From Sinisalibacter aestuarii (GTDB lineage: Bacteria; Pseudomonadota; Alphaproteobacteria; Rhodobacterales; Rhodobacteraceae), in NCBI RefSeq assembly GCF_027923545.1, contig NZ_BROH01000001.1, positions 558,001 to 622,000 on the forward strand: DNA of 64,000 nucleotides, written 5' to 3'. The notes beneath the pieces were generated by a model that had not been told where the DNA came from, searched no databases, and saw only the letters and a program-made list of their open reading frames with translations. Shown piece by piece: positions 29,837-35,213 of the stretch; position 1 is the stretch's first letter, and every line of letters starts with the position of its first letter. Both the position numbers and the translations under genes were made by a program.

Positions 29837-29856
29837 CAAAATTTTTGGAGGCTGAT

Positions 29857-30240
29857 TTGGCGCACCTCAAGATCGAATATTCCGCCGGCGTCGAAGGCGA
29901 TATTGCCGGTGTCTGCCGTGCGGGTCATCGCGCGATGCTGGAGGCGGGTATATTCCCCGTCGCGGGCATCCGCGTGCGGGCCTACCGCGCCGATCATGCC
30001 ATCGTGGCCGACGGGCTGCCGGAGAACGGCTTCGTCGCCATGACCGTCAGCGTCGGCGCGGGCCGCAGCACCGAGGCGCTGCGCCAGGCGGGCGATGCGA
30101 TCTTCGCGGCGGTGCAGGCCGCGCTGTCAGGCCCGCTGGCCACCGAGCATTTCGCGCTTTCTCTCGAAATCCGGGTGATCGACCCGGATCTGTCGTGGAA
30201 AGACACACCGATCCACCGCCGCCTCTCGGCCAAGACCTGA
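29857..30240 (+). CDS. hpaF: 5-carboxymethyl-2-hydroxymuconate delta-isomerase HpaF, with Ala in place of catalytic Pro
   Basis: The product is 127 residues and matches the CHM isomerase branch of the tautomerase superfamily. It has HLKIEYSAGV at the start, MLEAGIFPVAGIRVRAYRAD in the middle and VGAGRSTEALRQAGDAIF later. It would isomerise 5-carboxymethyl-2-hydroxymuconate in homoprotocatechuate meta-cleavage. The TTG at 29857 is the best start, with a TGGAGG ribosome-binding site five bases upstream. The residue after Met is then Ala (GCG), where the family has the catalytic base Pro-1. A single base change from CCG would explain it. A second in-frame TTG at 29845 lacks a ribosome-binding site and does not restore Pro. 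First gene of the hpaF-E-D-G-H operon. Confidence 0.85.
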   Translation: MAHLKIEYSAGVEGDIAGVCRAGHRAMLEAGIFPVAGIRVRAYRADHAIVADGLPENGFVAMTVSVGAGRSTEALRQAGDAIFAAVQAALSGPLATEHFALSLEIRVIDPDLSWKDTPIHRRLSAKT

Positions 30241-30248
30241 GGACATTC

Positions 30249-31760
30249 ATGACCATACTCGATCAGAACATCGCCAGGGCTACCGAGTATACGGCCCGGT
30301 TCCGCACCGAGGGCGTGCTGAACCATATTGCGGGCGAAAACGTGGCCGCCCTCTCGGGCGAGACCTTCGACAGTATCTCGCCCGTCGATCTTTCGGTGCT
30401 GGCGCCGGTGGCGAAGGGCGGCGCGGCGGATATCGACCGCGCGGTGGCCGCGGCAAAGGCGGCCTTCAAGGGGTGGTCGAAGATGCCGGGGGCGGAGCGG
30501 CGCAAGATCCTCATCAAAGTGGCCGAAGCCATCGAGGCCCGCGCCGAAGAGATCGCCTTTACCGAATGCCTCGATACCGGGCAGGCGCTGCGCTTCATGT
30601 CGAAGGCGGCGATCCGGGGAGCGGCCAATTTCCGCTACTTCGCCGATCAGGCGCCGGGCGCGGAAGACGGGCTGAGCCTGCGCAACCCGACGCAGCTCAA
30701 CGTCACCTCGCGCCGCCCGATCGGCCCGGTGGGCGTGATCACGCCGTGGAACACGCCGTTCATGCTGTCGACCTGGAAGATCGCTCCGGCGCTGGCAGCG
30801 GGCTGCACGGTGGTGCACAAACCGGCCGAGTTCAGCCCGATGACGGCGAAGCTTCTGGTGGAGATCGCCGAGAGCGCGGGCCTGCCGCCCGGTGTGCTCA
30901 ACGTGGTCAACGGCTATGGCGAGGATGCGGGCAGGCGGCTCACCGAACACCCCGATATCAAGGCCATCGCCTTTGTCGGCGAAAGCCGCACCGGCTCGAT
31001 GATCATGGCGCAGGGGGCGGCGACGCTGAAGCGCGTGCATTTCGAGCTTGGCGGCAAGAACCCGGTGATCGTGTTCGACGACGCCGATCTGGACCGCGCC
31101 GTCGATGCCGCCACCTTCATGATCTATTCGCTGAATGGCGAGCGCTGCACCTCGTCCTCGCGCCTGCTGGTGCAGGATACGATTTACGACGCGTTCACCG
31201 CCCGCGTCGCCGAGGTGGCGAACCGGATCAGGATCGGCCACCCGCTCGATCCCGAAACGGTGGTCGGCCCGCTCATTCACCCCGAGCACGAGGCCAAGGT
31301 GCTCTCCTATTTCGACAAGGCCCGCGCCGAGGGGGCGACCGTTGCGGCGGGCGGCGAGAAGGCGGGCAGCGAGGGCTGCTATGTGCGCCCGACGCTGTTT
31401 ACCAATGCCACCAACGAGATGGCCATTGCGCAGGAAGAAATCTTCGGCCCGGTGCTGACGGCGATCCCGTTCAAGGATGAAGAGGAGGCGCTGGCCATCG
31501 CCAATGGCGTGCAATACGGCCTCGCCGCCTATCTCTGGACCAGCGATCTGGGCCGCGCGATGCGGATGACCGATGAGCTGGAGGCGGGCATGATGTGGGT
31601 GAATTCCGAAAACATCCGTCACCTGCCTACGCCGTTCGGTGGCGTCAAATCGTCGGGCATCGGGCGCGATGGCGGCGACTGGTCGTTCGACTTCTACATG
31701 GAGACGGTCAACGTCTCCTTCCCGCGCCAGATTCACAAGACCCCGCGTCTGGGCGGCTGA
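30249..31760 (+). CDS. hpaE: 5-carboxymethyl-2-hydroxymuconate semialdehyde dehydrogenase HpaE
   Basis: The product is 503 residues, an NAD-dependent aldehyde dehydrogenase of the HpaE/HpcC type that oxidises the ring-cleavage product CHMS to the dicarboxylate. The catalytic Cys300 lies in GERCTSSSRL and the general-base Glu266 in FELGGKNP. The cofactor region contains GVITPWNTPFMLSTWK and VGESRTGSMI, and the C-terminus has the WVNSENIRHLPTPFGGVKSS-type substrate loop. All expected catalytic residues are present. The start at 30249 lies 8 bp after hpaF and gives the usual length. Confidence 0.93.
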   Translation: MTILDQNIARATEYTARFRTEGVLNHIAGENVAALSGETFDSISPVDLSVLAPVAKGGAADIDRAVAAAKAAFKGWSKMPGAERRKILIKVAEAIEARAEEIAFTECLDTGQALRFMSKAAIRGAANFRYFADQAPGAEDGLSLRNPTQLNVTSRRPIGPVGVITPWNTPFMLSTWKIAPALAAGCTVVHKPAEFSPMTAKLLVEIAESAGLPPGVLNVVNGYGEDAGRRLTEHPDIKAIAFVGESRTGSMIMAQGAATLKRVHFELGGKNPVIVFDDADLDRAVDAATFMIYSLNGERCTSSSRLLVQDTIYDAFTARVAEVANRIRIGHPLDPETVVGPLIHPEHEAKVLSYFDKARAEGATVAAGGEKAGSEGCYVRPTLFTNATNEMAIAQEEIFGPVLTAIPFKDEEEALAIANGVQYGLAAYLWTSDLGRAMRMTDELEAGMMWVNSENIRHLPTPFGGVKSSGIGRDGGDWSFDFYMETVNVSFPRQIHKTPRLGG

Positions 31761-31789: not shown

Positions 31790-32656
31790 ATGGGAGAGAT
31801 CGTTCTCGCCGCGAAGATGACCCATGTGCCGACGCTTCAGATGTCGGAGCAGGACGGGCCGATCAAGGGCAAGCGCCAGGCGGCGATTGACGGGCATCTG
31901 GAGATCGCGCGCCGGGCCAAAGCGCTCGGCGCCGATACCGTGGTGATCTGCGACACGCATTGGCTGGTGAATGCCGGTTTTCACATCAATGCCAACAGCC
32001 GGTTCGAGGGGCTGCTGACATCGTCGGAATTCCCCCAGTTCATCCGCGACATGCCCTATAGCCACGAGGGCAACCCGGGCCTGGGCGACGCCATTGCCGA
32101 AAAGGCGACCGAGATGGGCGTTTATACGCTGTCACACCGGCTCGACAGCCTCGATCTGGAATATGGCACGCTGGTGCCGATGGCGTTCATGAGCCGGGAA
32201 CACAAGATGAAGGTGGTGTCCGTCGCCGCCTTCTGCACCGTGCATGACCATGACGAATCGAAGGTGCTGGGCGAGGCGATCCGCGCCGCCGTCGAGGCAT
32301 CCGATTCGAAAGTGCTGCTCGTCGCTTCCGGCTCGCTCAGCCACAAGATCTGGTCGAACAAGGAATACGCGCCGAATAACGGCACCTTCACGATCAGTTC
32401 GGAGTTCAACCGGCAGGTCGATCTCATGGTGCTGGAGATGTGGCAGCGGGGCGATCACGCCACCTTCCTGAAGATGCTGGGTGATTACGCGGTGCACTGC
32501 TCCGGCGAGGGCTCGATGCACGATACCGCCATGCTTTACGGCGCGCTCGGCTGGGATCGCTACACCGGCAAATGCGAAGTCGTGACGGAGTATTTCCCGT
32601 CCTCCGGCACGGGGCAGGTCAACGTGATCTTCCCGGTCGAGGGGATGCCGGCATGA
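31790..32656 (+). CDS. hpaD: 3,4-dihydroxyphenylacetate 2,3-dioxygenase HpaD (class III extradiol)
   Basis: The product is 288 residues in the LigB-type class III extradiol dioxygenase family. It would open the ring of homoprotocatechuate between C2 and C3 using Fe(II). The N-terminal AAKMTHVPTLQMSEQDGP, the metal-ligand region DTHWLVNAGFHINA, the central GTLVPMAFM and the segment SGSLSHKIW fit HpaD. I chose the ATG at 31790 for its strong GAGGAGG ribosome-binding site. The stop overlaps the next ATG (ATGA). Homologous enzymes in vertebrate-type or vicinal-oxygen-chelate families are ruled out by the fold motifs. Confidence 0.92.
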   Translation: MGEIVLAAKMTHVPTLQMSEQDGPIKGKRQAAIDGHLEIARRAKALGADTVVICDTHWLVNAGFHINANSRFEGLLTSSEFPQFIRDMPYSHEGNPGLGDAIAEKATEMGVYTLSHRLDSLDLEYGTLVPMAFMSREHKMKVVSVAAFCTVHDHDESKVLGEAIRAAVEASDSKVLLVASGSLSHKIWSNKEYAPNNGTFTISSEFNRQVDLMVLEMWQRGDHATFLKMLGDYAVHCSGEGSMHDTAMLYGALGWDRYTGKCEVVTEYFPSSGTGQVNVIFPVEGMPA

Positions 32657-33525
32657 GCGCGCTTCCCCCCCGTCTTGCCGCCTTCCACGCCGCTGGCCGC
32701 GACCGGATCGGCGTCGTGACCGATGCCGGGATCGTCGATCTGACCGAGAGCGTGCCCTGGCGCGGGCTGAAAGAGGCGGTCGAAGCGGGCGCGCTGGGCG
32801 AGATGATCGCCGCCGCCGAGGGCCGCGCGCCGGATTTCGCCGAGAGCGAGGTGCACTGGCTGATCCCGGTCGCCGATCCCGAAAAGCTGATCTGCATCGG
32901 CGTGAACTTCCCCGACCGCAATGCCGAGTACAAGGACGGTCAGGAAGCGCCGGGCAAGCCGTCGATGTTCATCCGCTTCCCGCGCAGCTTCGTCGGTCAT
33001 GGCGAGCACCTCGTGCGGCCGCCGGAAAGCGCGCAGCTCGACTATGAGGGCGAGGTGACCATCGTCATCGGCAAGGGCGGGCGGCGCATTCCGCGTGAGG
33101 AGGCGTATGACCATATCGCCGCAATCACGCTGTGCAACGAAGGCACGATCCGCGACTGGGTGCGGCACGCGAAGTTCAACGTGACGCAGGGCAAGAACTG
33201 GGACAGATCGGGCGCCATCGGCCCCTGGCTGGTGCCCTTCACCGACCCGGCCCAGCTTGACGATATCCGGCTTGAGACGCGGGTGAACGGCGAGGTGCGC
33301 CAGCAGGACCGCACCGGGCGGATGATGTATGATTTCCGCTACATCGTGAACTACATCTCGACCTTCACCACGCTGGTGCCGGGCGATGTGATCGTCTGCG
33401 GCACCCCGACGGGCGCGGGCGCGCGGTTCGACCCGCCGGTCTGGCTGAAGCCCGGCGACGTGATCGAGGTCGAGGCCGAGGGCATCGGCATCCTGCGCAA
33501 TGGCGTCGAGGACGAGGCGTGCTGA
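32653..33525 (+). CDS. hpaG: FAH-family isomerase/decarboxylase HpaG (single domain)
   Basis: Fumarylacetoacetate hydrolase-fold protein of 290 residues. In the pathway it should decarboxylate 5-oxopent-3-ene-1,2,5-tricarboxylate and/or isomerise the product. Motifs include EKLICIGVNFPDRNAEY, the acidic metal-binding block SAQLDYEGEVTIVIGKGGR and the C-terminal VPGDVIVCGTPTGAG. The enteric HpaG is a tandem duplication of about 430 residues, whereas here there is only one FAH unit, so both activities may reside in one domain or another protein may help. The start overlaps the hpaD stop by four bases, and the 3' end overlaps hpaH by seven. Confidence 0.88.
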   Translation: MSALPPRLAAFHAAGRDRIGVVTDAGIVDLTESVPWRGLKEAVEAGALGEMIAAAEGRAPDFAESEVHWLIPVADPEKLICIGVNFPDRNAEYKDGQEAPGKPSMFIRFPRSFVGHGEHLVRPPESAQLDYEGEVTIVIGKGGRRIPREEAYDHIAAITLCNEGTIRDWVRHAKFNVTQGKNWDRSGAIGPWLVPFTDPAQLDDIRLETRVNGEVRQQDRTGRMMYDFRYIVNYISTFTTLVPGDVIVCGTPTGAGARFDPPVWLKPGDVIEVEAEGIGILRNGVEDEAC

Positions 33526-34319
33526 ACGCGGCGGAGATCGGGCAGGCGGCGGCGGATCTGCTCGGGGCCGAAGCCGCCCGCCGCCAGATCGGCCTTCTGA
33601 GCCTGCGCCATCCCGGCATCACGCTCGATGATGCCTATGCGATCCAGCTGGCCCAGATCGAGCGCAAGCTGGCGGCCGGCCGGCGGATCGTCGGCTGGAA
33701 GATCGGGCTGACCTCGAAGGCCATGCAGGAGGCGCTGGGGATCGACACGCCCGATTCCGGCGTGCTCTACGACGATATGGTTTTCGAAACCGGCGGCACG
33801 GTGCCAGCGGGCCGGTTCATCCAGCCCCGGATCGAAGCGGAGATCGCCTTCGTGATGAAAGCGCCGCTGGCGGGCGAGGTGACCCGCGGCGAGGTGTTGG
33901 CGGCGACCGATTACGTGGCGCCCTCGATTGAAATTCTCGACACCCGCATCCTGCGGGCCGATCCCGAAAGCGGGCGCCCGCGCCGGATCTTCGACACCGT
34001 GGCCGACAACGCCGCCAATGCCGGCATCGTGCTCGGCGCGGAGTGTCACGCGCCGGAGGCCGTGGATCTGCGCTGGGCGGGGGCGATCGTGAAGAAGGAT
34101 GGCGCGGTGGTCGCCACCGGCCTCGGCGCGGCGGTGCTGGACGATCCGGTGACCGGGCTGGTCTGGCTGGCGCGGCGGATGGGGCACTATGGCCAGCGGA
34201 TCGAGGCAGGGCAGGTGGTGCTGTCGGGGTCGTTCATCGGGCCGGTGGAATGCCCGCCCGGCACCGAGATTCGCGCCGATTTCGGCCCGTTCGGGTCCGT
34301 GGCCATCGACTTCGACTGA
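33519..34319 (+). CDS. hpaH: 2-oxohept-4-ene-1,7-dioate hydratase HpaH
   Basis: The product is 266 residues in the hydratase/decarboxylase branch related to MhpD and HpaH. It adds water to 2-oxohept-4-ene-1,7-dioate to give the substrate of the HpaI aldolase. Family blocks are RRIVGWKIGLTSKAMQ, the metal-site stretch QPRIEAEIAFVMK, and APSIEILDTRI. It starts at a GTG overlapping hpaG by seven bases, so the two are coupled. It is the last intact gene of the operon; ten bases downstream begins what looks like a truncated hpaI. Confidence 0.9.
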   Translation: MLNAAEIGQAAADLLGAEAARRQIGLLSLRHPGITLDDAYAIQLAQIERKLAAGRRIVGWKIGLTSKAMQEALGIDTPDSGVLYDDMVFETGGTVPAGRFIQPRIEAEIAFVMKAPLAGEVTRGEVLAATDYVAPSIEILDTRILRADPESGRPRRIFDTVADNAANAGIVLGAECHAPEAVDLRWAGAIVKKDGAVVATGLGAAVLDDPVTGLVWLARRMGHYGQRIEAGQVVLSGSFIGPVECPPGTEIRADFGPFGSVAIDFD

Positions 34320-34329
34320 GAAAACCGCC

Positions 34330-34470
34330 ATGCCCGCCGCGAACTCTTTCAAATGCCGGCTCGCTTCTGGTGATACGCAGATCGGCCTGTGGATCGGCCT
34401 CGGCGAGCTGCGTGATGTGTTGGCGCAACAGCGCGCGCTGGGCATCCGCAGCCACCCGGCGGTGGCCTAG
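34330..34470 (+). pseudogene. hpaI: Remnant of hpaI (4-hydroxy-2-oxoheptanedioate aldolase), N-terminal part only
   Basis: A 46-codon frame starts 10 bp after hpaH. Its first 25 residues (ANSFKCRLASGDTQIGLWIGL) match the conserved start of HpaI aldolases, which read NSFK...L..G..QIGLW.GL. After this the similarity stops: the next 21 residues (GELRDVLAQQRALGIRSHPA...) do not continue into the GFDWLLIDGEH core of the family, and the frame ends at TAG. HpaI is about 250-260 residues, so more than 80% is missing. The position directly after hpaH is where hpaI is expected. An internal deletion that fused the start to another sequence is the simplest reading. The stop shares the CTAG bases with the convergent gene's stop. 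Confidence 0.75.
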
Positions 34471-35213
34471 AATGCAAACACCGCCGCGGTCATGAAGGAG
34501 CGGGTGGCGAAGCGCTCGTCATCGGTTGGCGCATCGTGCTCCAGCACCCAGTGTTCGACATCGGCCTCTTTCAGCGCCGGCAAGACCCTGTTGTAATTCA
34601 CCGTGCCGCTGCCGAGATCGGCCCAGCCCTCTTCCTCCGCGTTCTCGCCCGGCGCGGCGCGGTCCTTCAGATGGGCCGCGACGATCTTGCCGGAGAGCCT
34701 GCGCACCCAATCCGCCGGGTCGTGCCCGGCGGCGTGAATCCAGCCCAGGTCCAGCTCAAGGTCCACCCCCGGCGCGGCGGCGATCTCCTCGATCGGCAGG
34801 CAGCCATCGGCGGTGAGGGTGAATTCGTAATCGTGGTTGTGCCAGGCAAAGCCCAGGCCGGCGGCGCGGATCGGCGCACCGGCTTGTGCCAGCCGCCGGG
34901 CGATCTCCTGCCAGCCGGCGCGGTCTGCAGGGCGGTCTTGCGGCGCCAGCCACGGGGCGATGACCGTTTCCACCCCCAGCAGCTTCGCCGCCGCGATCAC
35001 CCGGTCCGGGCTGCTCTCGATCCGGTCGAGCGAGGCATGGGCGGTGGGCATGGCGAGACCGTGCTTGTCGAGCAGCGCCCGGGTTTCGTCCGGCGTGGCG
35101 AGCTGCGGGTCGCATCCCTCGACATATTCAAAGCCCAGATCGGCCAGCATCTCCAGCGTGTCGTCGAGCGGATGTCTGCGCGACGAATAGAGCTGGTAGG
35201 AAATCTCGGGCAT
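34467..35213 (-). CDS. Sugar phosphate isomerase/epimerase-like TIM barrel protein
   Basis: The product is 248 residues of the xylose-isomerase-like/AP endonuclease 2 superfamily. It starts PEISYQLYSSRRHPLDDTLEML. Metal-ligand-type residues appear in LGFAWHNHDYEF, LELDLGWIHAAGHDP and AAHLKD, consistent with a divalent-metal TIM barrel. Members act on sugars, inositol or hydroxypyruvate; the substrate is not clear here. It has a good AAAGGAAA ribosome-binding site. It is convergent with the hpa operon, ending inside the hpaI remnant's stop. No sugar transporter or dehydrogenase neighbours are seen, so the context gives little help. Confidence 0.8.
   Translation of the reverse strand: MPEISYQLYSSRRHPLDDTLEMLADLGFEYVEGCDPQLATPDETRALLDKHGLAMPTAHASLDRIESSPDRVIAAAKLLGVETVIAPWLAPQDRPADRAGWQEIARRLAQAGAPIRAAGLGFAWHNHDYEFTLTADGCLPIEEIAAAPGVDLELDLGWIHAAGHDPADWVRRLSGKIVAAHLKDRAAPGENAEEEGWADLGSGTVNYNRVLPALKEADVEHWVLEHDAPTDDERFATRSFMTAAVFAF

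Follow-up and report, generated by a model that had tools for sequence, protein, structure and literature searches.

A probable hpaI pseudogene at the end of the hpa operon of Sinisalibacter aestuarii

HpaI/HpcH (4-hydroxy-2-oxoheptanedioate aldolase; TIGR02311; PF03328) acts at the last step of the homoprotocatechuate pathway, and its gene usually lies directly after hpaH. Incomplete versions of the pathway have been described. In the excerpted text of a report on two Sulfitobacter genomes, homoprotocatechuate genes are present and the pathway "seemed to be incomplete" (PMC4031333). The excerpted text of another report gives two of the seven homoprotocatechuate genes for strain O3.65 (PMC5064897). 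Within the literature on hpaI and homoprotocatechuate that was within our reach, which takes in few of the subscription journals, repeated loss of hpaI did not turn up as a described pattern.

We analyzed a window of 64,000 nucleotides from Sinisalibacter aestuarii, in which the place of hpaI is occupied by a frame of 46 codons (34330-34470, forward strand), separated from the hpaH stop by 10 bases. We conclude, with a probability of about 0.93, that hpaI survives in this frame only as a dead remnant, a pseudogene; the figure applies to the pseudogene reading and not to a rescue of the lost step. By itself, the remnant is an ordinary pseudogene, and the pattern that it belongs to across the family is slightly interesting. 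Annotation pipelines would score the homoprotocatechuate pathway as broken in S. aestuarii.

The hpa operon and the frame after hpaH

Five forward-strand genes precede the frame. The first, hpaF (29845..30240), has counterparts of 38-74% identity over nearly its whole length at 12 of the 18 loci listed; its name comes from the sequence-only reading of this DNA, and we take it to encode 5-carboxymethyl-2-hydroxymuconate isomerase. It is followed by hpaE (30249..31760; TIGR02299, 764 bits against a cut-off of 638), hpaD (31790..32656; TIGR02298, Fe type, 449 bits against 316), hpaG (32653..33525) and hpaH (33519..34319; TIGR02312, 358 bits against 351.5). At 17 of the 18 loci listed, HpaG, presumably a decarboxylase/isomerase of the FAH family, has near whole-length matches of 60-83% identity. 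The starts of hpaE, hpaD and hpaG were placed by the codon model. The sequence-only reading had called all five genes intact, and this is borne out, with HpaE, HpaD and HpaH exceeding their NCBIfam cut-offs and HpaF and HpaG matching relatives over nearly their full length. On the other side of the frame is a convergent sugar isomerase/epimerase-like gene (34467..35213, reverse strand), intact to its C terminus. The longest matches from relatives extend to residue 246 of its 248, hence the gene is whole. Its similarity to IolE is weak (39.8 bits, where the cut-off is 290), and we take its product to be a TIM-barrel protein.

The frame corresponds to C1:592330 in the genome, well within a contig of 979 kb, and lies directly 3' of hpaH, where hpaI is expected. 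Its front piece (34330..34404, forward strand) corresponds to HpaI residues 1-26, with 25 residues owing to one fewer near the start. The first residues match TIGR02311 positions 1-22 in a profile search (E 0.014), and the front piece alone matches a profile built from the aldolases of 68 relatives (E 2e-8 in a three-sequence search), in agreement with the earlier claim that the first 25 residues resemble the start of HpaI. The same reading had described the last 21 residues as unrelated to HpaI, and this part has to be withdrawn. These residues form a second piece (34405..34467, forward strand; ELRDVLAQQRALGIRSHPAVA) that aligns with HpaI residues 52-72. Remnant residues 26-45 are 70% identical to the hpaI copy on contig C15 of the same genome (E 0.024 alone). 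Against 20 randomly chosen HpaI sequences, the second piece reaches a best ungapped score of 53, which none of 2000 shuffles equalled (top shuffle 48), and it has 14/21, 14/21 and 13/21 identities in the three top-scoring relatives. Its final residue is A, with R in all ten relatives listed. Alone, it matches the profile at positions 52-72 with just 4.3 bits, a low score as expected for 21 residues. Both pieces thus match HpaI and do so in order, in a frame whose 46 residues cannot come near the whole-protein TIGR02311 cut-off. Within the 4 kb after position 34300, no further HpaI pieces rose above chance (best E of the other fragments 0.011).

Two joins account for what is missing. The internal join (34404..34406, forward strand, with a 3-base ambiguity) marks the absence, in frame, of 75 bases (25 codons) relative to an intact hpaI. 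When the frame is aligned with the 68 loci whose hpaH is immediately followed by an aldolase, the counterparts of the two pieces are 25 residues apart in 66, and the DNA of genome G207 gives a two-part, colinear match to the region (query 1-127 on G207:C8 220069-220192, and query 125-158 on 220265-220298). It follows from this spacing and the two-part match that hpaI lost 25 codons in frame. The 3' truncation join (34467..34470, forward strand) is a CTAG common to the stop of the remnant (34468-34470) and that of the convergent gene. HpaI residues 73 to about 256 are absent, and the loss extends to no more than three bases from the stop of the convergent gene. The 46-codon hpaI remnant claimed for the end of the operon is therefore confirmed as a deletion remnant. 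Alignment with hpaI of relatives, which had been proposed for finding the deletion join, placed it at 34404-34406; the 3' truncation is a second loss.

Compared with intact orthologues, then, the frame bears the lesions of a pseudogene, a 25-residue gap relative to 66 of 68 relatives and a lost 3' end. A working HpaI has a full barrel of about 250 residues, and this frame has 46, from which HpaI residues 27-51 and 73 onward are missing. The lost residues presumably include the catalytic histidine and the metal-binding acids of HpaI, with the roles they have in the E. coli enzyme. With the catalytic-histidine piece, so assigned, and the rest of the barrel gone, the remnant cannot be an aldolase. 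On the pseudogene reading, one in-frame deletion took 25 codons (HpaI residues 27-51) and a larger one took the stretch from about codon 73 through to the convergent gene's stop.

Codon changes relative to the C15 copy number 9 synonymous and 4 nonsynonymous in 21 codons of the front piece, 8 and 7 in 21 codons of the second piece, and 82 and 41 in 265 codons of hpaH. The nonsynonymous fractions (11/42 in the remnant and 41/265 in hpaH) give a Fisher p of 0.12, on only 42 remnant codons. The remnant codons show no visible decay, which means either that hpaI was lost recently or that too little of it is left to tell. No close hpaH occurs in the six other genomes of the same genus that were searched (best 48% identity), and near relatives therefore cannot date the loss of hpaI.

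A frame that keeps its start, its stop and its position after hpaH, and that stays open across the internal join, could instead encode a small functional protein that is conserved in its own right. We consider this scarcely credible in light of searches for the same short form, which was found neither by protein in 99 other genomes (46-residue query) nor by DNA in 393 other genomes of the family (241-base query). The seven protein matches outside the S. aestuarii genome that have E values of 0.012 or less span only residues 2-28, and the six of them that were run against the HpaI profile all lie within full-length HpaI-family frames. The 241-base region matches 24 of 394 family genomes, its own included, and only in its own is the whole remnant covered. 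Relatives with the same 46-residue gene had been named as the observation that would speak against a remnant; none was found, and the five weak places spanning the join that were examined are at chance level. Three are protein matches (G011, G012 and G056) without an HpaI profile match, among weaker matches across the join with E of 0.03 to 1. The other two are DNA matches (G190 and G153; E 8e-4), which are gapped and likewise have no HpaI profile match. The join sequence was absent from the viral_contigs set, as expected.

Other aldolases in the genome

The PF03328 profile finds seven places in the S. aestuarii genome, belonging to six genes. The HpaI/GarL type accounts for three of these genes: those on contigs C4 and C19, which are intact, and that on C15, which is frame-broken. 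Contig C15 carries a sister hpaG-H-I set. Its HpaH is 85% identical to that of the window, and the two are sisters in a 47-row tree (support 98/86). A working second copy of hpaI would have an open frame; the C15 copy has a frame change near C15:55424, possibly a sequencing error. In a 61-row tree, the part of the C15 hpaI beyond the break sits on a short branch (0.087), as would follow from either a recent break or an error in sequencing. A succinate-semialdehyde dehydrogenase gene (gabD), two genes upstream of the C15 hpaH, is also split in two frames (C15:52102-53576; L038 6103-7577). Recombinase, transposase and phage-like genes seem, from open reading frames judged by eye, to surround the C15 set. 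Its source did not emerge from a search of plasmids. Identities were 69.7-72.1% among the matches listed (20 of 329 records); 18 of these 20 are from Rhizobium, and in 10 the annotation places hpaH, hpaI and gabD together in a single stretch. By best-place identity, the 329 records divide into 69 at 80-90% and 260 at 60-80%.

The C15 set bears on whether the contig is wrong at the remnant and hpaI is intact in the cell. The assembly consists of 50 contigs, a similar second hpa set could mislead an assembler, and the breaks in the C15 hpaI and gabD are themselves possible sequencing errors. We nevertheless regard an assembly or sequencing artefact as very unlikely. The remnant is far inside its contig, and the C15 copy, at about 82% DNA identity, is too distant for an easy collapse, with both remnant pieces differing from it. 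Two separate losses, one of them ending at the stop of a neighbor, are untypical of collapse. The codon model, trained on genes of the window, gives 15 open reading frames in 26.0-39.4 kb, with no split pair apparent by eye.

The aldolases on C19 and C4 score 301 and 293 bits against TIGR02311, below its cut-off of 368.8. That value does not discriminate here, as no hit exceeded it in two sets of related genomes (0 of 26 and 0 of 20), although an aldolase lies right after hpaH in 10 genomes of the first set and 3 of the second. They are 43-52% identical to the three HpaI proteins compared, and neither falls inside the operon-type HpaI clade with good support. The C4 gene adjoins a pair of open reading frames that we take to be dctBD-like. 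The C19 gene (C19:24001-24756) ends about 200 bases before the contig end. It is the last gene, after one for an HpaH-like hydratase (338 bits; cut-off 351.5), of a catechol-type meta-cleavage cluster (C19:12057-24756; L040 58-12757), which includes a catechol 2,3-dioxygenase (400 bits) and a 2-hydroxymuconic semialdehyde dehydrogenase (872 bits), both over their cut-offs. In the 61-row tree, the C19 aldolase groups with those of G436, G376 and G362 (100/100, inside a 97/83 group of five), all from genomes without an adjacent hpaI. The same group includes an aldolase, 66% identical, located directly after hpaH in Thioclava sp. JE_KL1 (L066). This placement hints, without proving it, that enzymes of the C19 type are able to act in the hpa pathway.

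The sequence-only reading had offered a choice between an aldolase encoded elsewhere and a pathway that stops at a dead-end intermediate. The genome search bears out the first half to the extent of supplying candidates (C4 and C19 intact, C15 frame-broken), and it neither establishes nor excludes the second. That the pathway is truly cut, with 4-hydroxy-2-oxoheptanedioate as a dead end and the remaining operon heading for decay, is in our judgment unlikely. The frame break in the second hpaI copy and the modest identity of the C19 and C4 aldolases to HpaI would fit a cut pathway. Against it stand the intact HpaE, HpaD and HpaH, the two intact HpaI-family aldolases, and an HpaB-like oxygenase at C1:708.7 kb (429 bits against a cut-off of 480) with an adjoining flavin reductase frame, a pair by which the upper pathway looks present. 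A broad substrate range of HpaI-type aldolases would also count against a dead end. On the pseudogene reading, decay of hpaI was probably tolerated owing to other HpaI-family aldolases that are, or formerly were, in the cell (the C15 sister copy, C19 and C4). We infer the order of the two deletions and, with much less confidence, a past or present cleavage by the C19, C4 or C15 enzyme.

hpaI in related hpa operons

We examined 109 hpaH loci, made up of the best 80 of one scan and 29 from the G-numbered genomes; some genomes are in both sets (L137 and L059 are the same, with identical tree rows), so the sets are not additive. An aldolase frame starts within 240 bases of hpaH in 68 of the 109, among them L066 with its aldolase of the C19 type. 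At the other 41, searched up to 3 kb downstream, a whole HpaI is present in seven and an hpaI scrap in one, from Pseudooceanicola atlanticus. This scrap (L062 10812-10920) follows hpaH directly and reads MPAGCSSTRRVIDGDHRPDRLRDVLAQL...; it has a modest score of 13.2 bits against the profile (E 0.0055 among 2779 fragments).

Among the best 80 loci, examined up to 10 kb on each side (L107 only 1.4 kb downstream), the aldolase is adjacent to hpaH in 55 and nearby in 7, and the stretch holds none in 18. These 18 suggest that the last step has often moved to, or been taken over by, another aldolase. Genes hpaE and hpaG are also present in 13 of them. Seventeen of the 18 genomes (all but that of L107) were searched further, and 13 have an HpaI-like gene of more than 290 bits elsewhere. 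Zhengella mangrovi, an Ahrensia MAG, Oricola indica and a Rhizobiaceae MAG have none above 200 bits in assemblies that may be incomplete, and the first three of these have whole hpa operons (hpaF, E, D, G and H) without hpaI. No replacement aldolase was recognized by eye in the codon-model gene lists for the hpa neighborhoods of Zhengella, Ahrensia and Oricola. G190, in which the operon was read in part, has no HpaI-like gene above 140 bits. Of the 16 G-numbered genomes without an adjacent hpaI, 8 have an HpaI of the operon-type clade elsewhere; in S. aestuarii, the broken C15 copy is the sole one.

Several neighboring genes were noted at these loci. In Z. mangrovi, an HpaD-like dioxygenase gene (L057 10909-11757) follows hpaH in the usual place of hpaI. 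The Ahrensia MAG (L074 7721-9139) and O. indica (L083 7721-9139) have an extra gene just before hpaG that by eye resembles a PLP-dependent aromatic amino acid decarboxylase. In G305, a further HpaI-like gene (C24:79197-79933) is divided between two pieces that overlap but lie in different frames (profile 1-138 and 114-246); it is perhaps another frame-broken aldolase copy.

We propose, tentatively and at somewhat less than even odds, that hpaI has been lost repeatedly from otherwise complete alphaproteobacterial hpaF-E-D-G-H operons because a different aldolase, with its gene elsewhere in the genome, performs the cleavage. This aldolase would be of the C19 type in some genomes, and a yet-unrecognized enzyme in those with no close HpaI relative (Z. 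mangrovi, the Ahrensia MAG, O. indica and perhaps G190). Assigning the last step to an aldolase in these genomes would close a small gap, open to testing, in the textbook pathway.

Comparison with known aldolases and a second remnant

The S. aestuarii remnant resembles HpaI/HpcH in its two pieces and in the usual place after hpaH. It differs in that about 80% of the protein is missing, so that it cannot fold or act as an aldolase. The C19-type aldolase, represented by the copy in the same genome and by that of Thioclava JE_KL1, belongs to the superfamily of HpaI, is intact, and adjoins an HpaH-like hydratase in both places. It differs from HpaI in sequence (43-44% identical to the three HpaI proteins compared), and the S. 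aestuarii copy sits in a catechol 2,3-dioxygenase cluster. A counterpart of the remnant itself is the scrap in P. atlanticus, which is likewise a short piece of hpaI after an intact hpaH, with hpaF, hpaE and hpaG upstream. The cuts are in other places, however, and the P. atlanticus scrap retains a VIDG-H-P stretch that is absent from the remnant in the window; the differing cuts make it most likely that the two losses were independent.
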